From positions 99,664 through 163,663 of the forward strand of contig MU129024.1 of assembly GCA_014904985.1 (NCBI GenBank): a stretch of DNA of 64,000 nt, written 5' to 3'. Shown here piece by piece: positions 48,585-61,885 of the stretch. Made by a program: the position numbers and the translations under genes. Source of the DNA: Hydnum rufescens UP504. Lineage: Eukaryota; Basidiomycota; Agaricomycetes; Cantharellales; Hydnaceae. A model generated the notes under the pieces. That model was given only the letters and a program-made list of their open reading frames with translations. It did no database searches and had not been told where the DNA came from. Numbering within the stretch: position 1 is the stretch's first letter; each line of letters begins with the position of its first letter.

Positions 48585-49754
48585 TCATCCTTGGGCAGTC
48601 TGGGGTTTAGTGTCATCCTCTGTTCTGGTCCAGACCATCTTGAATTCTGGATTGTTAACGTATCCTTCATGGAAGCGTCTGATCATTTCTAGGGATATGG
48701 ACAAGTTTAACCCTGGTGAGTACTTATCCGAACCTCGGGTCGCGATGACTGGCTCCGAGGCTTCAACAGGGTAGACCCCTGACAGGGCGTTTGTGGAGGA
48801 CTTGTTCCACATGGTTGTTTGGGATCGTGTTAGTACAAACGTGGCCTTTCCCAAACTAGGCGGTCTGTTAGAGAGACCTAGGTTACTGGATTGGTCGGTC
48901 TCGTTCATAATCAATTTGGGGAAATTGGGATCCTTGGGTGACACTACTTCAGGGGTCAGTGGTAATCGGGATAGGGGGTCCACATTGGAGTGGATATGAC
49001 CCGGCCGATGTACTATGATCATCCCGGGAAAGGCTGCAAACACAGTTCCCCATGCGCTAAGACGACGGTTGGCATTCTTGTAGGTCTTTGCCCATTGTAG
49101 TGCTGCATGGTCGGTTATGAGGAGAATTTGTTCTCCTTCTATAAAAGGCAGGAACCGGATTAGGCTGTCCTTGGCCGCTAAGGCCTCCCGTTCCGTAGCG
49201 GAGTACCAGGTTTTGGCGGGTTTACAAGTGCGGCTCCAGTAGGCAATGACCCTTTCTACGTGGATGGTAGTATCCTCGAATGAACTTGCCCACGAACCTG
49301 GTGCTGGACGATCATTGTGGATCTCGGAGAGTTTGATGGTCAATTCAGGTACTGGACTCCCCTCATCGTATGCTTTACGGAGACGCTCATAGGTTTTGGT
49401 GTCTCGTAGGTCCCATATTAGTATGGGCTGGATCTGTTGCAAGGCTCTGGCAAGGGCCACATCAGAAGCGTCGGTGTATAGTCGGTAACTCTGGCCCCGG
49501 ATGGGGTGACCCCGAACGGGTGCTGACGTCAACGCTAGCTTCATCATTCTATAGGCCTCCTCATGCTCGGCTTTCCAGCTCCAGGGTGAGGCCTTTCGGA
49601 GTAGCACGAATAAAGGCACGGCGATTCCGGAGAAACAGGGTATGTACACGGTGAAGTAGACAGCCATCCCCAGGAAGGTCTCTAGGTCCTTGTGATGATG
49701 AGGAGTAGCTAGAGTGGTAACTGCTGTAAGCAGGATGGTTAAGAACCAATCCAA
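48585..49754 (-). pseudogene. RNase H part of the LTR element
   Basis: Long open frame with the RT thumb/connection (HHHKDLETFLGMAVYF, FVLLRKASPWSW) and RNase H: YRLYTDASDVALARALQQ (first catalytic Asp), TWYSATEREALAAKDSL (Glu), LLITDHAALQWAKTY (Asp), HRPGHIHSNVDPLSRLP. Separated from the RT by the 1178 bp insertion at 49756-50933. With the insert removed the frame joins directly to the RT. Confidence 0.88.
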
Positions 49755-49755
49755 C

Positions 49756-50933
49756 TACTGTCCACATTGTTGAGGAGAGGACAAAAGAAGGGAGCCACGG
49801 GGACAATTCGAATATTCAGGTCCAGGAAAATGAAGGTCTTTTAGGATAATAGAAAATCCCAATGAACAGTGATTGCCCAAGGGAGTAGATCAGTGTCACA
49901 AAATAAGATGTCAAGGCCACACCCTGAAGTTGTCCTCTTGACTATTCAGTCTTAATGCAGCTGTACACAGTCTTGACAAGTGGGAAATCTCCTCCAAACA
50001 GCGGCAATACTTCAGTGCCTCAGACTGTGATAGGGGGAAAAACCAAATATTTACATGCCCCCTCCCCTTTATATACATTCCAGACCACAATTCAAAATTC
50101 CGGAAGAAAAGCGGAAATAAGGGAAGCATAATGAAAAAGAAATGAAGTCAAAAGCTTCAAAACTGGTGGAGATATTCAAGAATCAAGTGAAAAAGAGACA
50201 AAAAACACTTTACAAGGCATTCCTCCCTTGAAACTGGATAGATTCCCTTAAGGAATGGTGGAATAGGTCGCCCTGAGTGCCCTTTGCATCGGAATTAAGA
50301 GGGCCGGAACCAATTTGTCATTTGTGTTGGTGGAGCAAAGGGGGAGTCATGGGGAGGGAGTTGTCTTGTGAAAAATGGAGTTCGCGTCTGTTTGTTTTTC
50401 CCTTGGTACCGTTCGATGCGCATTTTTAACAGCTTTCAGGGAATGGTACTCGCGAATGAATCCGATAAGAATTGGCTTTGAAAATCAAGAAATACTCCTT
50501 CAGAGTATGAATCATGGAAAGATATTGTTACAGGGACCGCAGTTTTGATCCGTTCGTCGCGTGTTTGGTACCGTTCGATAGGTACGATTCGTATATTTCT
50601 GGGCGCGGTCGTTTCGAGTTGATCCGATCAGAAATGATGGAGAAATTCAAAAAATACTCCTTTAGAGTGACATAATCCCTTTTTGAATCATGTGACGGGT
50701 CCGCGGGTCCAGAACGAAGGCTAGGCACAGTCCGCGTCATTACATAATCACAATTCTCCACCCTTAAGGCAAAGGAACGATGTGGAATGAGGGGTTTTGG
50801 ACATATAGAATTTGGACTGTTTCTCCAATGAATGAAAGGTGTGAAAATTAAGAATCGGATGGACATTCAGTCCATTTGTTTGGTCATAAAATTGGCCTCG
50901 GATGGTGTTTCTATGGTGTAGGGATTTATCCCT
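49756..50933. mobile_element. 1178 bp non-coding insertion between RT and RNase H
   Basis: Flanked by CCAAC at 49751-49755 and 50934-50938. Removing the insert and one CCAAC rejoins the pol frame without a stop (AVL followed by DW on the minus strand), which supports a 5 bp target duplication. No ORF of note is present. It carries two copies of a ~168 bp unit beginning GGTACCGTTCGAT. The ends are not clear TG...CA LTR ends, so the class is open. Confidence 0.7.
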
Positions 50934-50938
50934 CCAAC

Positions 50939-52080
50939 ACCGCTTGTATTTTTTCTGCATTGGTGGACAGTCCTAATCGTGACACCTTTTGTCCTAGAAG
51001 CTGTATACTGCGATACCCTACATGACACTTGTGCAGTGCCAACGTAATACCAGATTTCCTGATGGCTTCAAGAACTGTACTAATGTGGTTGAGGTGTTTG
51101 TCGAAAGTCCCGGAGTAAACCACAATATCGTTGATGTATACTAGTGTGAATATCCACAAGTAAGGGGCTAGGATTTCTTGCATTACTCGTTGGAATATAG
51201 GAGGTCCGTTTCTCCATCCGAAAGGCATTCTCGTGAACTGGTGTAGCCCACAGTGCGTCCTCATGGCGGTGTATGGTTGGGAAATATCGTCGAATTCCAG
51301 TTGAGTGAATCCGGCTAGGGCATCAAAAGAGGACAGATATTGCGCCCCTGAAAGGGCTTGGAGGATGTCGCTTTGTCGTGGTATAGGGAATTGGTCAGGC
51401 ACGGTGGCTGCATTCAGTTTTCTCCAATTGATGCAAAGTCGGTCCTTGCCATTTTTGTGCATGATTAACACAGGGGCTCCCCAGGGGCTGTTCGATGGTT
51501 CAATCACTCCCTGTTTTAACCACAGATCCAACTGTTTGTTGATGAGGTCCCTTTTGGCTGGTGAGGCAATGTACGGAGTGGCCGAGATAGGCTTAGTACC
51601 AGGCATTAATTCGATGTGTACCTTGGTAGGGTGTTTGCCTAATCGTATGTCGAACCCAAAAGCCATTTTGTGTTTTCGTAATACCCTATATAGTTGAGTG
51701 CGTTGGTCGGCCATCAACGATGGGTCCACGTCGATTAAGGATTCCAGGTCCTGGGACTTTAGTTCATCCGTGTTGCCGGACTCTGCAGTTTTCGGGCCTC
51801 CCCCCGTAAACTCTGGGGCTCCCATTTCTAGGGCGTTAACCCGAACCTTGTCATGGTCGTCTGGTTCTCCCCGGTTTAGATCCTTTTTGCTGAGGGACCC
51901 GTCTATGAGCGTATGAATGAACAGGGCTTTTCGTTTGAACTGGTCCCTATCTTCTGGGCTCAAATTGGCTTCCTTACTGAGGCATACAGCAGGATTTAAC
52001 ATCTGTCCTAATACTTCGCCCTTACAAAGCAGTTTGGGTGAAGAGGAGGGGTTGGTGACTGGTAGGGATAGTTCCTCCAA
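50939..52080 (-). pseudogene. Reverse transcriptase of the LTR element
   Basis: Open frame with KVHIELMPGTKPISATPY, LKQGVIEPSNSPWGAPVLI, DRLCINWRKLNAATVPDQFP, LSSFDALAGFTQLEFDD, HQFTRMPFGWRNGPPIFQ and the polymerase motif YINDIVVYS. Ty3-type enzymes have two Asp in this place (YxDD); here the first is Asn, by a change that fits CpG-to-CpA in the codon, so polymerase activity is probably lost. Confidence 0.9.
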
Positions 52081-52257
52081 TGTGTCTACTATGCAGTTGA
52101 CTGTGGCTAGGAAACTATGGCTACCTCTCCATATTATCCTCTTTTCGATTAATTGTGGACCGTCATTTTGATTGTAGTTTCCCTTAATTCGTACTCAAGC
52201 CACGTGTCCTCCTGGGATGAGAGTGTCTTCTAGGGCCACAACCCATCCTTGGCCTGC

Positions 52258-52995
52258 TCATTCTCTTTTAGGGGGGATAACGTTCGGATTCCTTTCCGAA
52301 TCAGCCTTTATGGATGATTCATCTTCAGTTCGCCAGGAGGCAATGAAGGCCTCTTGGTCCTTTCGGGTACGGCTGGTGGGTATTCGGTGTTCTCTATCTC
52401 CTACTTGCCAGTAGGCTTCCCGTTCGGGCCTCATGGTATGCAGTTGCCAAGCCCGGTGTGTGTCTTCCCCGATTAGGAGGTTGGTGTTCATTCCTTCCAC
52501 TACGTAGGCTTCAACACCTCGTAATAACATGGGCCCCAATTGGCTATGAAAGTATAGATCGAGTGTGACATAACCCAGGCATTTGGCTTCTCCCGTAAGG
52601 TGTAGTAGTCTCAGTTTTAACCCCTGTTTAATTGGGGGGGATTGACCCTTCAGGGCTCCCAGGCACTTGGCAGACACCAAGGTGGCCGCGGCTCCAGAAT
52701 CGGTGACCACCTCAAGTATGGGCCCATTCACATCATTGACACAACATTCCAACTTAAAGGCGTCCATGCCCAGACTAGCCAAACCCGGAGGCCTTTTCAC
52801 TGTGGGCTCCGGGGCGTATATGTCTCCAGGAAGGACCTCGTCCTTTTTAGCACTTAACTTGGGGACAGGCCTGTTCTTACTCGAAGCAGTGTAACAGGCA
52901 GCTCCCTCTAGGGGCGATTCATCAGGTACGACAAATAAAATGTCAGTTTCCTTGTCCTCTTCCCCACTGCTGAGAGCTTCATGGGCAGCCATCAT
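52258..52995 (-). pseudogene. Aspartic protease region of the LTR element
   Basis: Retropepsin-like stretch VVTDSGAAATLVSAKCL (active-site DSGA, also used by many retropepsins), a strand-rich middle, and MNTNLLIGEDTHRAWQLHTM (the ILG/LLIG motif near the flap end). A charged linker on either side connects it to gag upstream and RT downstream. Confidence 0.8.
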
Positions 52996-52999
52996 AGCA

Positions 53000-53213
53000 G
53001 CTTGATAAACTTCTTCTTATCCCAAGGAAATAGCGATGTAAGCTTTGCGATAAGCAATGTCGCACCTGGTACTTGTAGACGGCTTGGCACGTTTGGGATC
53101 CTTTTTGTAGGAGCCACAGTCGTAATCATAATGTAGCTCACTTCCACAGTGTCGACATGGCCGAATAGGTTTCCTTTTAGACCTCATGTCACTAAGGTCG
53201 TACTCGTAGGTGG
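53000..53213 (-). pseudogene. Gag zinc knuckle and linker to protease
   Basis: CRHCGSELHYDYDC gives the spacing C-x2-C-x4-H-x4-C of a retroviral-type nucleocapsid knuckle, preceded by a basic RSKRKPIRP. A TAA stop lies between this part and the protease frame. The 614 bp solo LTR separates it from the rest of gag. Confidence 0.8.
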
Positions 53214-53875: not shown

Positions 53876-55663
53876 TCAACTCTGTCTGAGATCTTCCCGT
53901 ACACGACGTATTACCTCGTTGGCTATGTCTTTGGTTTGCCATACGTTGGAAAGGTTTGATATGGCAAGAAGGGCATCTTCTTGGTCCTTGACCCTGGTAA
54001 ATAGGGTGTCTGTGTCGTGGCAAAGATCCACATCCACATAGGCCTGCCAAGAAGGTGGGGCATGTTCCATGAGGGTACCCACCTCCAGGGAGTCAAATGT
54101 GGGATCTGGGATTTCAGGGGGTGGATGCAGGACCCGGCGAGCCCTCACCTTTCAGGTCAGCCATTCGGTGGGAGTCTCTCTCTTGTGCCCACAATTACAG
54201 AATCATAGTTCGTCATAGATAGTAACCTGCTTGTCGTACCAACGGGTACCTAGTAGTCAGGTCCACATGATAAATTTTAATGAGTCCCAATCTTGACTAG
54301 CTTGTATCTTTGTAGCATTGGGCAGACTTCGCCACCAGACATCTGCATGTTTGGTAAACCGCATAGTAGCGGCGAAGGCTAGTTGTTCTCACATCCGACA
54401 ACTTCCTGTGGCGTAACGATCTAGATCTTCAGTCCAGGAGACAAAAGCATTGTCCGATCCGTCATATTCTGGTAAATCACTGGGTCGGAATTCGAGTTTG
54501 AACTTGGGTTCATAGTAGGCTTCGCATTGCCTGAGTCCATTGGGGACCTCATTGGCACCTACAGACAGAGCTCCTCCATCGGGGGGACCGGGCCCAGGTG
54601 GACCGTTACTCGGCCATCCTCATTCGGGGTACCCACCCCCGGGTCCTACAGGGGGACGACCGGGGTGGACAGATCTCCATACAGGGGGACCTCCTTCATC
54701 TCCAGGATCGTCATTGTCTGGGGGCCCTCCACCTGGTGGGTTCCAACGGTTACCTTCTGGTCTACCTGGATCGGGTCGTATGTGTTGGGCCGAAGAGGGG
54801 TCCATTGCCTGGGACAGCAATACTGATCTATGTTCCCAGGACCCAATTCCTCACAGGTTCGGTGTCTTGGGGGCATTCACCGTGATCTGTTGTCATAACG
54901 GGTCCACCGAGGGTTGAGGTCGTCTAGTGTCAAACCAGGGATGGGGAAGTTGAGTCCCCTTGTCGCTGACCAAGGTTCCAGGCGTCAGAATCTCCTGGTT
55001 CCACCATGGTAGCCCTTGCTCTTGTTCAGAGTACGCAGCTAATGGCGAGATGACTCTAGGGGGGTCATTTACTACTCCTGTCATGTACCCCTGTGCTTTG
55101 GAGTTCGTAGTATAAGCCACCGATTTGCTTTTGTCGACGCTTTGGAGATGTGCTATGATCTTGAGTCCAGTACGTAACCGACATAAGCCCAGGGCAGCTA
55201 ACTGTAGGACCTTATCTTCTGATGGGACTCCCGCTTCCATATGGACAGCAAGTACTCCTCCTGGATCGAATTTGTAGGGGTCTGGGTCGGATACGAAGTA
55301 ATGCTTGGCAATTTCGGCTGCAGTATCCTGTAGTATTTGGCCACACTGTAGTAATGTCAGGCTGAATTCCGTATCAGGCTTAAAGACTGTAGGTTGACCC
55401 GTACGGGACACTCGAATGATGGTGTCAGTAAAGGAGGATGATTCTATGTTGAGAATGTACGCCAGGTGGTATAAGGACATGTTAATCAGACGTATATTGG
55501 CCACTGCACTAGGTCCCTGTTCCCGACGTAGGGATTCGACTACTGAAAACAGTAAGGTTCTATGACGAAGTACCTCCTGGTCCATGGAGGCTTCAGCAGA
55601 TGGAAGCTCGTTGGTCGTGGATCTGGCCCTTTCGTCCATGACGGACAACTCAGTCAGCCACAA
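53876..55663 (-). pseudogene. Gag (capsid region) of the LTR element
   Basis: The N-terminal open frame (55663-54893) starts MWLTELSVMDERARS. A Gly/Pro-rich middle follows (~54880-54560, WNPPGGGPPDNDDPGDEGGP). The Ty3-type capsid then reads FKLEFRPSDLPEYDGSDNAF, FAATMRFTKHADVWWRSLPN and IQASQDWDSLKFIMWT, and the end reads DEDALLAISNLSNVWQTK-like sequence. At least four premature TGA codons occur (after VDPL, CRM, MWT and WLT), each where CGA would be expected. Confidence 0.85.
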
Positions 55664-58389
55664 ATGTAGGTCTAGTTAGATATTACGAGCCTTGCATTTA
55701 TATAGTCTAACTAGAGGTTTTGATGCTGGGGCCCCTGGGGCCGGCTAACATGATTTGCGTGATTCAGGCAGGGGCCCCTGCCTCTCACCTTAGACTGGGA
55801 CTTAGAGATTCTCAGACGACAGTGGGCTACACAGGCTTATTGGGGATAATCACCATTGTTTATTATGATGTAGCGGGCCATATGGGCTTATCGGGGATAG
55901 TTCCATTTATAATTATTTATTTATTATATATTAAACATAACCTGGGTGGGGTTTCGTTCAGTGGTCCCATTATTTTAATTATTGATTTATCCCTCAAAAT
56001 TAAAAAAAAATTAAAACTACTTAGTAGCACCACACACCCACTAGGGCGGGTGTGTGGTACTGTCCATACAAATCAAAAAGAAAAAAAAAGTACTACTTAG
56101 TAGCACCACACACCCACTTGGGCGGGTGTGTGGTGCCATCCCTCAAAATTTAAAAAAAAAAAGGATTGAGTAGCACCACACACACCCGCTAGGGCGAGTG
56201 TGTGGTACGGGGGGCTGGGCTTGGTGATTCACCATTGGGCGGGTCGTTGGGACGAGTTGCAGGTCGCGGGTTGCAGGTTGTCGTTTTGGGGGCTTCAATT
56301 TGGATCCTAAAATAATAGCGTACATTAGTAAAAAAAAAGTTGAAGTGATGCAAAGGAGCAGCTTGGGCCGCTCCTTTTGTGTCGCTGTACATATAAAAAT
56401 CTAAAAAAAAACCTGCACACCCGCCAAAGTGGGTGTGGTACTGATTTTGCGCCCGGATCGCGTGCTTTGTACTCAGTTTGCGCATGGGGGGTGTCCGTTG
56501 GGGTGGGTTGTCGTTTCAGGAGCCTTGATTTGATTCCTAGAATGATAGTGTATGTTAGTAAAAAAATTTTGAAGTGATGCAAAAGGAGCAGCTTGCGCTG
56601 CTCCTTTTGCGTCGCTGTACGCATAGAAATTGAAAAAAAAAACCTTGTAGTACCACACACCCACCGAAGTGGGTGTGTGGTACTCATTTGTACCATGGTC
56701 ACGCATTCGGATTTGCGTATGGGGGCTGGTTGTCGTTTGGCGAGTGGTTCGTTTGTGGGTTTCCATTCTCGTGTGTTTTTTCGGCAGGTGTCATGGGTCT
56801 TGATTGGGGGTTGGTTGGGTTGTAGGATCAGAGAAAACCTAGGAATAAATAATGGGTTAGTAAAAGAGAAGAAACAACAAAACAAAAGCCACACAAAAGG
56901 AGCAGCATATGCTGCTCCTTTTGTGCGATTGTACTTACCCTGAATTACCACACACCCGCCTGAAGCGGGTGTGTGGTTCGTCTGGGGTCCTGTCGCATTG
57001 CGTCGTCTGTTCCCGTTCCCGGGTTTCGTTTGGCGGGTGCATTGTCATTTCCGAGTGGGGGGTTCGTTTGCCAGCTCGGGCAAAACCTAGAATAATATGA
57101 TAAATGATGTGTTAGTTAAAAATTAAAATGAAAAATGAATGCAAAAAGAGCAGCCCTTGCTGCTCTTTTTGCGTTGTTGGGGGTGTACTATATCACTTAC
57201 CTTTTGTAGAACCACACACCCGCTATCGCAGGTGTGTGGTTCGTGCGGTTCGGTGTCCCTTATTTGATGCGCCGCGGTTCGGGGAGGGGGAGGTGGCTTC
57301 GCGGGCCTTCATTTGTGGTAACGATAGCCTAGAAGACTGCATTATTAGTCAAAAAATTTAAACCAGCGCAAAAAGAGCAGCAGGTGCTGCTCTTTTTGTG
57401 CCGTTGCGGGTACCCAACATTACTTACCTTGCATAGAACCACACCCGCTATGGTGGGTGTGTGGTTCTATGGGTTTGGGGTTGGCTCGTGTCTTCGTTTG
57501 GCGCGTCGTCGTTCATTGGTTTGGTTTGGGGGGCTGGTCATCGTTTCGGGGGTGATTCATTTCGCCGATCTTCATTTGTGGCAGCCTAGAAGAAAAGATG
57601 TATTAGTTAAATAATAATAACCAGCGCAAAAAGAGCAGCACTTGCTGCTCTTTTTGCACCGTTGTGGGTACCCAACGTTACTTACCTTGTATAGAACACA
57701 CACCCACCATAGCGGGTGTGTGGTTCTACGGGTTTGGGGTCGGCTCAGTGTCTTCGTTTGGCACGTCATTTGTTGGTTTCGTTTTGGGGGCCAGTCATCG
57801 TTTCGGGGGCGATTCGTTTCGCCAATCTTCATTTGTGGCAGCCTAGAATAAAAGATGTATTAGTTAAATAATAATAACTGGCGCAAAAAGAGCAGCACTT
57901 GCTGCTCTTTTTGCGCTGTTGGGGTGCACAAGGTAACTTACATTATATAGAACCACACACCTGCCGCAGTGGGTGTGTGGTTCCTGGGGCCTCCCATTGG
58001 GTGTCTGTTGCCGGTTCTGGTTTGGCTCTTGCCGTTCGGGTTCTCGTAAACCTGAACAGTGACTAAATAATAAAAGCTACGTTAGTATAAGACTTCAAAA
58101 TGGCGCAAAAAGAGTAGCTTTCACTACTCTTTTTGCGCCCTTGTATCTACTGAAACAAAAACTCACCTTAGGACCACACACCCGCAGCAGCGGGTGTGTG
58201 GTCATGTCCGTGCCTTTCTGGGCCATTTGTTGAGTGTGGCTGCATAGTTGCACAATTCAATGCCGGCAATTGCCGGTCATTAAAAAGCGCCGAAGTGTAG
58301 TGCCACGAGCAGAATACATATTGATAACAAGTATATAGATGTAGAATCAATACTATATAATACATATTTGTCCAAACAAGCAAAGAAGA

Positions 58390-58770
58390 TGATGATAATG
58401 AGTCAGAGCTCAAATAAGGCACAATATGCCTAATTGAAGAGTGGATTGAGCCACTTCTATGGGTCATAATTGGCCCAAATATAGATATAATGATGGTATA
58501 TGCGAATCCCTACATGGGGGACCAGGTATATTGGACGATTCTGGCATTTTTCAATTTTTCACGCCTTCAATTCCCTAAATAGGGAATTGAAGGCGCGAAA
58601 AATTGAAAAACGCCAGAATTGCCCAATATACCTGGTCCCCATGTAGGGTACATATATCTCACCAATATATTTAAATTTGAGCCGATTCTGAACCATAGAA
58701 ATCGCCCAATCCACTTTGCAATCTTCATGCCTTAGTGAACTCTGACTCATTGTCATGGTCTCTTTATTTC
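58390..58770. repeat. Central inverted repeat of the foldback
   Basis: The inner 140 bp (58515-58655) is an almost perfect palindrome centred on TTCCCTAAATAGGGAA, with arms containing ACCAGGTATATTGG and AATTTTTC. Similarity continues outward, more diverged, through AGTGGATTG and AATGAGTCAGAG on both sides. The flanking first exons of both arms also match (GGCAATTG-CGGCATTGAATTG against GGCAATTG-TGGCGTTGAGTTG). A bidirectional promoter is possible. Confidence 0.85.
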
Positions 58771-59214
58771 CTTTCGACAAATATTAATTATATGGTATTT
58801 ATTTTACATTTAGTCACTTGCTACTAATTCATACTGTAGTCGTGGCGCTGGACACTTGGGTGCTTTTTGGATGCTGGCAATTGCTGGCGTTGAGTTGTGT
58901 TTCTTTCTCGCAACCACCACCTAACAGGAAAACCACCCAAAGAAGGAAAGATGACCACACACCCGCCGATGCAGGTGTGTGGTCACAAGGTGAGTTTTTT
59001 TTTATCATAGTAGATACAACAGCGCAAAAAGAGCAGCGAAAGCTGCTCTTTTTGTGCTGCTTTGAACTTGTTTACTAACACAATACCTTTCATATAGATC
59101 GTGACCTGGTCCTAGGGACCAGTTGAAAATCAGCCAAACGACGAGGACCCAACCTGCCAGGGCGCAAACAGGACCATGCCAAGCAACAATACAAGAAGGA
59201 AGACCATGACAACA

Positions 59215-59380
59215 CGACAAACGCAACAAACGTGACGAGCGCAACCAACGTGACCAACACAACCAACGCAACCAACGCAACCAATGCGACCAACACGACC
59301 AATGCAACTAACGCGACGAGCACGACGAGCACGACCAATGTGAGCAACGTGACGAGCACGACCAACGCGACCACGACAGA
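59215..59380 (+). repeat. 9 bp minisatellite encoding Asn-Ala-Thr repeats
   Basis: Units of the type AACGCGACC / AACACAACC expand one unit of the right arm to 462 bp. One frame reads NATNATNATNTTNATNAT, a string of N-glycosylation sequons. No evidence that this frame is translated. Confidence 0.8.
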
Positions 59381-60910
59381 CGACAACGCGCCCAGTGAAT
59401 GGCCGCACGAACCCCACACCCGCTACAGCAGGTGTGTGGTTCTCTATGAGATGAGTCCCCCCCCCCTCTAATATATCCAGCCGTGCAAAAAGAGCAGCGA
59501 AAGCTGCTCTTTTTGCGCTGGTTTTCATTTCTCACTAATGTAAATATTTTTTCTAGGTTATCCCCTGCCCTACAACCAACGAAATGAAGAGAAGAACCAC
59601 CCAACAAAGAACGAGCGGAATGGAGCCCTGCCAAATGAACCCCAACCCCCCCCCAAAACGACAGCCCGTGACATGAACGCACGCCAAAACCCACATGCTA
59701 AACGAAAAGCATGCGAGTGAAGAAGGACCATCACACAAAACGACGTGGAGCTAACAAGTGGCCCCAGGAACCACACACCCGCTGTGGCAGGTGTGTGGTA
59801 CTTCAAGATAAGTGTTTATTGTTTATTTTTTTTTATTTTTGTGGCACAAGAAGAGCAGCGTAAGCTGCTCTTCTTGCGATGCTTTAATATTTAACTAACC
59901 TGTTCATTTTTCTAGATATTGAACTTGAACCCCATGACACCAAACCCATGGAGCGAAACCCGCGATGCCCAACCCGCCGAATGATGGCCCGCGACGCCAA
60001 ACCTGCCGAACGGAGGTCCGTGATGTCAAACCTGCTGAACAAAGGCCCGCCCCCCATGAATGAAACTGCGAAACGACTGATGACTGACATGAACCCGCGA
60101 ACTGGGCCGCACAGGAAAATAGGGAGCCACACACCCGCTGTGGCGGGTGTGTGGTACTCTAAGATAAGCTTGTTTTCATTTTTTGTGGCGCAAGAAGAGC
60201 AGCATAAGCTGCTCTTCTTGCGATGCTTTGATGTTTAACTAACACCCTTATTTTCTAGATCTCGAACCCCGCACGAACCCCCGACGCCAAACCCGCGACC
60301 TGAAACCCTGCGACCGAAGCCCGTGACCTGAAGCCCCGTGACCCCAAACCCACCAAACGAAACAAAACCCCGTGAATGAAACCATGAACGTGCAAGTACC
60401 ACACCCGCTGCGGCGGGTGTGTGGTACTCTCAAGGTAAGTCTTTCTTTCTGGAGCTACAATCGCGCAAGAAGAGCAGCCATGGGCTGCTCTTCTTGCTCT
60501 TCACTACATTAAAGTAACACATCTTTTATTTTAGGTGACAAAATAGCCTCCCCCCCGAATAAGCCCCTGCGAGATGTGCGCACTGGGCCCCACGCAAATG
60601 GGCAAACGGGCCCATACAAACGCGTGAGCTAGGCCCGGGGTGATCATTTACGGTATGAATTTTCATTTTGCTACAAGTGCGCAAGAAGAGCAGCCTGTGG
60701 CTGCTCTTCTTGGGTGCATGGGTCCCCACTGGGTGAGCCTAGTGTATATAATAATAATCAATAAATAAATAATCCTAATGGCTAGGGGCCCCAGGGGCCC
60801 CTGGGCTGCTTGACCAGCCCCCTTGACTGAATTGCAGGGGCCCCTGGGGCCCCCCGGGTCTGATATCTAGTTAGAGCATATAAATGCAACCCTTGAAATA
60901 TCTAGTTAGA

Positions 60911-61372
60911 TACCGATAATTGGCTGACCAGGCTGATGACAGATGTAGCTGGTCCGCTACTTTGACGAGAGTCCTGGGGAGTGCCTCGGGAAGTGTGCAT
61001 GGCAAGATCACGATACGTAGGCCTAGTATACTTTACGGACCTTGGACATTCCTTAAGTACGTTTTCAGGTTCATTTAGCTGTAGGTCTGAGTGATCACGG
61101 CATGGCAGGTGGCCAGGTTTCCAGGCCGTTCTTGTGAGGCTGGAAGCAGTGGAGTCTGGACTACTGCCAGATCCTAGACTGGATCTGGCCCAGTCCCTGG
61201 AAGTGAAGTCTAGAGCTTCGTTATTTTTTGGGGGAGTGACCACCCCTTTTGAGGTATCCACCCTGGTTAAGAGGGGGCTGCGAATCTTCGACGATAACAT
61301 ATCATAGGCTTGGTCAAGTATAGGCGAAATGAGTGTTGAGCCCCAGATACGGGTTCTTACACACTCCACCAG
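60911..61372 (-). other. Leader of the LTR element with primer-binding site
   Basis: The minus strand directly after the 5' LTR reads CTGGTGGAGTGTGTAAGAAC. TGG one base after the LTR end is typical of a tRNA-primed binding site; I did not identify the tRNA. The frame opening in the LTR continues through the leader to 60902 (WARSSLGSGSSPDSTASSL) but has no recognisable domain and ends at the foldback border. Confidence 0.55.
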
Positions 61373-61885
61373 TGTTAATTCGGTAGAGTCCGAATTAGGT
61401 TTGGGGCGGTTAAGCAGTCCCGGCAGGGGTTCCGGATTGGGCTTTGGTCCATGTTTACCTTCGACAGGTTTGCGTGTTAGTTCGAAGGTAGGGTCTGGGA
61501 ATGTTCTAGGATGGGTCTTTAGACGTAGGTCCATAGGTCCGGGTTTTGCCATGACATTAGAAATAAGAGTAAAGTTCTGTGGTAAGGTCATGCAGTGCGA
61601 GAATCGCAGTGTACTGTTCCAGTACACTGTGGGTAGCAGCCAAGTGAGTGGAAAAAGATGCATTTCCGGATCTTCCCATGGCTAGCTATTCGAGTCTACT
61701 TACGTAAACAGATACAAATCTAGCTAAAGCCGGGGCAGCACCAAACTCCTGTGGAGAAGCTTTCCACTGGAGTGTTTGAGAAGAAAAGGGAAAAAGGAAG
61801 TAAGAAAGGAGGGAATACATTGGTTCATAGTAGTAGTGACGTTTTAATAGGGCCGAGTGCCAGTCAGACTAATATCCCACTAACA
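61373..61885 (-). repeat. 5' LTR of the 18.8 kb element
   Basis: 513 bp, ~98% identical to the 43130-43641 LTR. Target duplication GTCTG follows at 61886-61890. Confidence 0.96.

Follow-up and report, generated by a model that had tools for sequence, protein, structure and literature searches.

The stretch of DNA analysed here, referred to below as the window, comprises 64,000 nucleotides of contig MU129024.1 of Hydnum rufescens UP504 (positions 99,664 to 163,663), and it contains an element of 5,290 bp (55646..60935, unstranded) whose two arms are made of repeated intron-like units that point away from a palindromic centre. The element is real, repeated and recently mobile, and it is fairly probable that it represents a non-autonomous DNA transposon that is moved in trans by a KDZ (Kyakuja-Dileera-Zisupton) transposase and whose interior consists of two divergent non-coding intron arrays kept by selection. 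Its limits are defined by the end sequences and by boundaries collinear with other copies in the genome assembly (63.2 Mb, 539 contigs): L009, L010, L011 (cut by a contig end) and L013 share the left boundary, and L009, L010, L013 and L014 share the right one, at ~91-95% identity. The original prediction of a two-armed foldback at 55671..60910 was rightly located, but the element is wider. The 15-bp terminal inverted repeats, CAACTCAGTCAGCCA on the plus strand (55646..55660) and, reverse-complemented, CAGCCTGGTCAGCCA on the minus strand (60921..60935), are bordered by an 8-bp target-site duplication, ATGACGGA at 55638..55645 and ATGACAGA at 60936..60943, in which seven of eight bases agree. 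The duplication is perfect (8/8) in L009, L013, L021, L022, L029, L030 and L031, the left boundaries of L021 and L022 having been judged by eye from the end motif. The insertion interrupts a minus-strand open frame with pieces at 54893-55675 and 60902-61681; because subtracting the element plus one duplication (5,298) from the distance between the frame starts (6,006) leaves a number divisible by three, the two halves lie in one frame.

Thirteen near-full units were found between 56307 and 60536, eight on the minus strand left of the centre and five on the plus strand right of it, and a profile built from 12 of the window units detected none elsewhere in the 64 kb (E <= 0.001). Read outward from the centre, the order is hairpin A, donor, hairpin B, a CTAAY branch site and YAG, with introns of 91-114 nt and a unit spacing of 224-456 bp; the divergent layout, these lengths and the junction 58990|59098 had all been predicted correctly. 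In the right arm, unit 1 (58954..59097), comprising hairpin A and the intron 58990-59097, has the donor GTGAGT, and is followed by unit 2 (59411..59556; intron 59451-59556, ATGAGT), unit 3 (59770..59915; intron 59808-59915, ATAAGT), unit 4 (60126..60258; intron 60164-60258, ATAAGC) and unit 5 (60396..60534; intron 60435-60534, GTAAGT). The left arm runs from unit 1 (58063..58202; intron 58166-58063, GTGAGT) through unit 2 (57843..57981; intron 57941-57843, AAT|GTAAGT) to units 3 (57586..57724; intron 57685-57586), 4 (57337..57465; intron 57427-57337), 5 (57087..57240; intron 57200-57087) and 6 (56839..56977; intron 56938-56839), all with GTAAGT, and ends with units 7 (56537..56681; intron 56643-56537) and 8 (56307..56441; intron 56412-56307), both with the weak donor GTTTTT. 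The expectation of GTAAGT or GTGAGT donors throughout therefore holds for most units but fails at three right-arm and the two outermost left-arm donors; likewise, the full set of splicing signals is present in nearly every repeat rather than in all. Right-arm exon 2 contains a 9-base tandem repeat (CAACGNGAC-like, 59192-59389), and unit spacing there differs between copies.

This layout recurs across the genome. The 24 loci compared were picked as top matches of window 57000-58000 and of the element ends, and are thus a non-random sample; they hold 271 units, corresponding to 264 distinct rows, of which 263 have both anchors mapped. Donors begin with GT in 216 of these 263, with AT in 42 and otherwise in five, the commonest nine-mers being AAG|GTGAGT (62) and AAG|GTAAGT (53). 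The branch site is mainly ACTAAC (127) or ACTAAT (92), YAG is present in 261 units, 15-20 nt past the branch A in 214 of them, and the median intron is 104 nt long, so that donor, branch site and acceptor stand in the order and spacing of a spliceosomal intron array. Conservation starts at hairpin A and stops some five bases beyond the acceptor; exon positions 6 and higher do not exceed 0.28 bits per base. When each unit was assigned to its nearest centre, 212 of the 219 units from loci where a centre was recognised pointed away from it; the seven inward ones (L015, L023, L026) lie near edges of the fetched stretches and are taken to belong to neighbouring copies, and 52 further units lack a recognised centre. 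An exact hairpin-B core is found at 2,201 places in the 63-Mb genome, whereas the reversed pattern is absent. With its long inverted arms and internal repeats the element is foldback-like and, as had been supposed, a non-autonomous element that moves as a whole, as indicated by its ends, target duplications and many copies.

The splice signals and hairpins are conserved between unit lineages. Among the consensi of 73 unit clusters, a grouping that corrects only partly for the kinship of similar, non-independent copies, the difference was 25.3% in the donor, 14.2% in the branch site and 14.9-17.1% in the stems, compared with 48.3% in other intron positions; the 31 clusters with three or more members gave 22.8%, 11.0%, 11.6-15.4% and 47.2%, respectively. 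Unit 1 alone differed by 6.1% (donor), 12.5% (branch), 6.0-7.4% (stems) and 27-49% (other intron), a comparison in which arms were labelled by contig orientation and some consensi mix two arms, so that the 73-cluster figures are cleaner and less favourable. Private changes in six young copies of subfamily F1a (the labels F1a-F6 are our own) accumulated chiefly at CpG, with 295 in 4,185 cells versus 129 in 25,232 cells elsewhere. At non-CpG positions, the splice motifs carried 8 private changes, for which 6.8 were expected at the whole-element rate and ~10 at the rate of exons and remaining intron, and the hairpins carried 22, for which 21.0 and ~32 were expected; the element ends and centre carried even fewer. 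In inserted copies the splice motifs therefore show little or no constraint and the hairpins mild constraint at most. In a comparison of fixed and private changes between six F1a and three F1b copies, the hairpins (p = 0.004) and the motifs and hairpins combined (p = 0.002) departed from the remainder. Because the signals are conserved between unit lineages and yet change privately at a rate near or somewhat below the average, they appear to be selected in the propagating lineage, and the simplest reading of these sequence comparisons is selection for propagation, under which the signals would be important in those lineages that continue to transpose.

Base composition gives the best indication that the outward strand is expressed as RNA: T makes up 10.7% of exon bodies (200 pieces, 29,393 nt) and 37.4% of introns (267 pieces, 27,869 nt). 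The proposed bidirectional promoter is the palindromic centre (58299..58849, unstranded), which contains the inverted repeats I1, I3 and I4 and TATA-like motifs near 58350-58364 (minus) and 58787-58795 (plus); a consensus of 44 half-centres retains the TATA-like ATTATATAGTATTTATT. A possible poly(A) signal, AATAAATAAATAA, was read by eye in each arm, at 60760..60772 (plus) for the right transcript and at 55913..55925 (minus) for the left one. Protein coding was rejected as an explanation of the arms: the longest ATG frames after in-silico splicing, which rests on assumed transcript limits, span 96-129 codons and fall below the 95% level of shuffles, TGA is enriched 3.5-fold over expectation in exon bodies, and no Pfam family matched in 10 frames. 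A known RNA family was likewise rejected, as none of eight Rfam matches at E <= 0.1 attained the gathering score. The putative RNA is accordingly read as non-coding.

The genome contains at least 154 matches to the KDZ transposase domain, and the exact right-end 15-mer of the element occurs in it 193 times, with no occurrence of the reversed control. When the first 100 of the 193 end sites were compared with 103 KDZ places among the matches listed (154 reported), a KDZ match lay within 4 kb inside at 11 sites, in the same sense in all 11, and outside at 4. Three of the 11 (L040, L041 and L042), selected for having both the end and a KDZ match, show 95-96% identity to one another. The similarity between them breaks off no more than 2 bases from the 15-mer, which indicates that the 15-mer is the true end of a KDZ repeat; in L041, adjacent frames encode a CxC1 and a KDZ domain. 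The 8-bp duplication is that reported for Zisupton (PMC12730594) and for Cryptococcus KDZ1 (PMC12810828). The element itself contains no open frame of 250 aa, and none of its 10 frames of at least 110 aa matches Pfam; having no KDZ transposase of its own, it does not belong to the KDZ superfamily in the strict sense. Because its right-end 15-mer also ends transposase-coding KDZ repeats, the element is most likely non-autonomous and mobilised by KDZ transposase. The original prediction had drawn a comparison with MULE-like elements. A relationship to MULEs is not supported: it is KDZ repeats that the ends match, and no search for MULEs was made. The 4.7-kb subfamily was considered as a source of an autonomous copy and rejected, since L029, to which L030 and L031 are ~93% alike, agrees with the element in ends and arrays, and its longest frame is 229 aa (no domain scan was run on any of the three). 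Derivation of the hairpins from KDZ elements was also rejected, there being no match in the three KDZ copies. In-frame stops in the KDZ matches listed are mostly TGA, the codon that deamination at CpG would make of CGA, which agrees with the CpG-driven decay of element copies.

Maturation and spread of the element would then proceed as follows. The palindromic centre would fire two divergent non-coding transcription units, in which hairpin A is exonic, immediately ahead of the donor, and hairpin B, within the intron, would shorten the distance from donor to branch site. The spliceosome would remove hairpin B with each intron, leaving an RNA that is low in U and bears repeated copies of hairpin A, and AATAAA-type signals near the element ends would terminate transcription. 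From the constraint and composition we infer that spliced RNA is made, and the element probably produces spliced non-coding RNAs that aid its spread. KDZ transposase would recognise the 15-bp ends and cut and paste the element in trans, and the cassette would be kept by selection on the mobilised lineage, since spliced transcription would aid spread. The most likely benefit would be that the element stays transcribed, and hence open to the transposase, where inserted copies decay fastest at CpG.

Several observations weigh against this interpretation. Not every unit can be spliced to completion, because three of the five right donors in the window begin with AT and two left donors are GTTTTT. 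The hairpins of young copies are not clearly neutral, as 22 private changes stand against the ~32 predicted, and the comparison of fixed and private changes is not significant for the splice motifs alone (2:8 vs 45:68, p = 0.31). In exon bodies TAA and TAG, in contrast to TGA, are depleted (0.21 and 0.39 of expectation). As to mobilisation, L010 lacks a target duplication (3/8 bases), nothing besides the end is common to the element and the three KDZ copies compared, and neither left ends nor target duplications were found for those copies (L040, L041, L042). In addition, KDZ duplications vary, being 7 bp in two Kyakuja families without inverted repeats and 4-8 bp in KDZ2 and KDZ3, while hAT elements also give 8-bp duplications, as reported (PMC12730594, PMC12810828).

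The hairpins and motifs may instead act as DNA, as transposase sites or cruciforms, splicing being irrelevant. The stems are near-perfect palindromes, which as a class are common in foldback elements, and the pairing data are mixed. Among the 73 cluster consensi, wobble pairs on the outward strand exceed A-C mismatches in hairpin A outside CpG (14:3), in the hairpin-B core (12:7) and in the three basal pairs of hairpin B (61:9), whereas the hairpin-B core covaries with few wobble intermediates, CpG positions show no wobble excess (19:16 in hairpin B, 13:26 in hairpin A), and the outer pair 72-113 of hairpin B, perhaps not paired, is reversed (2:25 in favour of A-C). Our confidence in the main interpretation, initially a little higher, was lowered because of this mixed result. 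However, a role as DNA would not need donor, branch site and acceptor to be ordered and spaced, nor a boundary of conservation at the acceptor, nor U-poor exons beside U-rich introns, and the three KDZ copies lack the hairpins; we therefore consider it quite unlikely. A decayed satellite or old protein gene, in which intron-like motifs are kept only by recent duplication, would account for the tandem repeats within exon 2, and low T by itself lengthens open frames, but the short ATG frames, the TGA excess and the lack of Pfam matches noted above speak against a gene, and ordered units recur across subfamilies though the exon bodies diverge, which makes this explanation very unlikely. That each unit is an introner-like mobile intron, multiplying alone and inserting into genes, is extremely improbable: units have indeed multiplied within arms, each with splice signals, but they keep one direction per arm, the target duplications flank whole elements, and one seemingly isolated hairpin that was inspected proved to be a member of a three-unit array. 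On this one site, the introner-like amplification of single units that had been proposed at the outset is not supported.

The AT donors deserve separate treatment among the putative intron arrays. In 37 of the 42 AT units, positions +3 to +6 are GAGT, AAGT or AAGC, and all 42 have both a CT(A/G)AY branch site and YAG, that is, an AU donor with an intact branch site. They are concentrated at unit 2 (21/43), with fewer at unit 3 (10/41) and unit 4 (8/35) and none at units 5-10 (0/66), in ordered arms that include composite runs in L017 and L024. At unit 1 the share is 2/44. The two cases are in L010 and L029, where the innermost donors of the arms are 1,315 and 1,097 bp apart; the spacing in their siblings is 819-825 and 830-831 bp, respectively, as if unit 1 had been missed. 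By intron sequence, AT donors fall in at least three unit lineages, and seven AT-unit consensi, the ATTGTT type of L029-L031 being left out, differ by 5.3% in the donor compared with 42% in other intron positions. The left unit 2 shows another conserved departure from the consensus, AAT|GTAAGT, in most F1a and F1b copies and also in L043.

An AU donor is reported to arrest the splicing of Aspergillus telomerase RNA once step one is complete, an effect that depends on context (PMC4299874), and the donor site is AUAAGU (PMC3603654). By analogy, AT-donor units may undergo only the first splicing step, in which case unit 2 would release exon 1 plus exon 2, ending just past hairpin A, as a defined non-coding RNA; alternatively, AT donors might stall spliceosomes and thereby feed or overload small-RNA silencing. 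The concentration at unit 2, the retention of the other signals, the recurrence in three or more lineages, the low divergence of the donor relative to the intron and the Aspergillus precedent argue for first-step cleavage. On the other hand, AT is a minority state genome-wide, with 37 AT against 161 GT donors in one unit lineage (212 with any base) and 3 against 32 in another, where the three are loci of the 24-locus sample; the ordered arms of L025, L026, L027 and L028 have no AT donor; and no U-rich Sm-like site was seen by eye before AT donors (no motif scan was made), where the consensi have hairpin A and a short stretch. The telomerase effect depends on context, and the bias towards unit 2 may partly reflect shared descent. 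We therefore regard arrest after the first step as a tentative and rather unlikely alternative to complete splicing. It is more doubtful still that the transposon encodes paired non-coding RNAs, one fully spliced at unit 1 and the other cleaved at an AU-type unit 2 by the first step only, with 3′-ends made by the spliceosome. If this were true, the first-step cleavage here would be, to our knowledge, the first case outside telomerase RNA, and the spliceosome would be part of the life cycle of a DNA transposon.

With regard to the surroundings, pieces of a retrotransposon lie on the minus strand at window 48585-53016, with reverse transcriptase and RNase H(-like) domains and a protease-like match that falls short of its cut-off, and the frame split by the element adjoins this retrotransposon upstream of it; no Pfam family matched the two halves of that frame. 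G+C-rich palindromes (GGGGCCCC) are situated just inside both element ends, at 55727-55780 and 60784-60854. In the subfamily of L023, L025 and L027 the subterminal sequence differs and the end is related, CAGGCTGGTCAGTCA. In the right flank of L023, after 9210, one copy of this subfamily apparently lies within an intron-like stretch of another (TTACTAAC..TTCTAG after the end), and L012 is a rearranged copy at a contig end, with right and left ends back to back and a changed arm order.

Non-autonomous DNA transposons are usually regarded as passive cargo between two ends. In the present element, splicing seems to matter for spreading, because the splice signals are alike between lineages that differ at nearly half of the other intron positions; if confirmed, this would offer a way to test how introns aid transposons or bring about their silencing. 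By its mobility the element is of a known kind, and its intron-array interior was not met in the literature searched, in which, by title and start of abstract, no transposon built of repeated splice units was found (most subscription papers lie outside that search). Foldback or long-inverted-repeat elements resemble it in having two arms in inverted order with internal repeats, but here the arms match mainly in the centre and the cassettes, and every repeat consists of an intron and a hairpin beside it. Introners are likewise mobile sequences with splice signals; here, however, the whole element moves, carrying many introns in two directions, and is not removed as one intron. In Cryptococcus, transposons are reportedly silenced through stalled spliceosomes, a system that would tie the poor introns of a transposon to small RNA. 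KDZ transposons share with the element the 15-bp end, as seen in the KDZ repeats of this genome, and, as reported for Zisupton (PMC12730594) and Cryptococcus KDZ1 (PMC12810828), the 8-bp duplication, but the element has no detected transposase and only the end in common with them. Fungal telomerase RNA (PMC4299874, PMC3603654) differs in that the present case is a repeated transposon cassette with no Sm-like site seen by eye, and is alike in combining an AT(A/G)AGT donor with a good branch site and acceptor. The question has been raised in one of these papers whether any RNA besides telomerase RNA obtains its 3′-end from the spliceosome (PMC4299874), and the AU donors of this element, if confirmed, would be a candidate.

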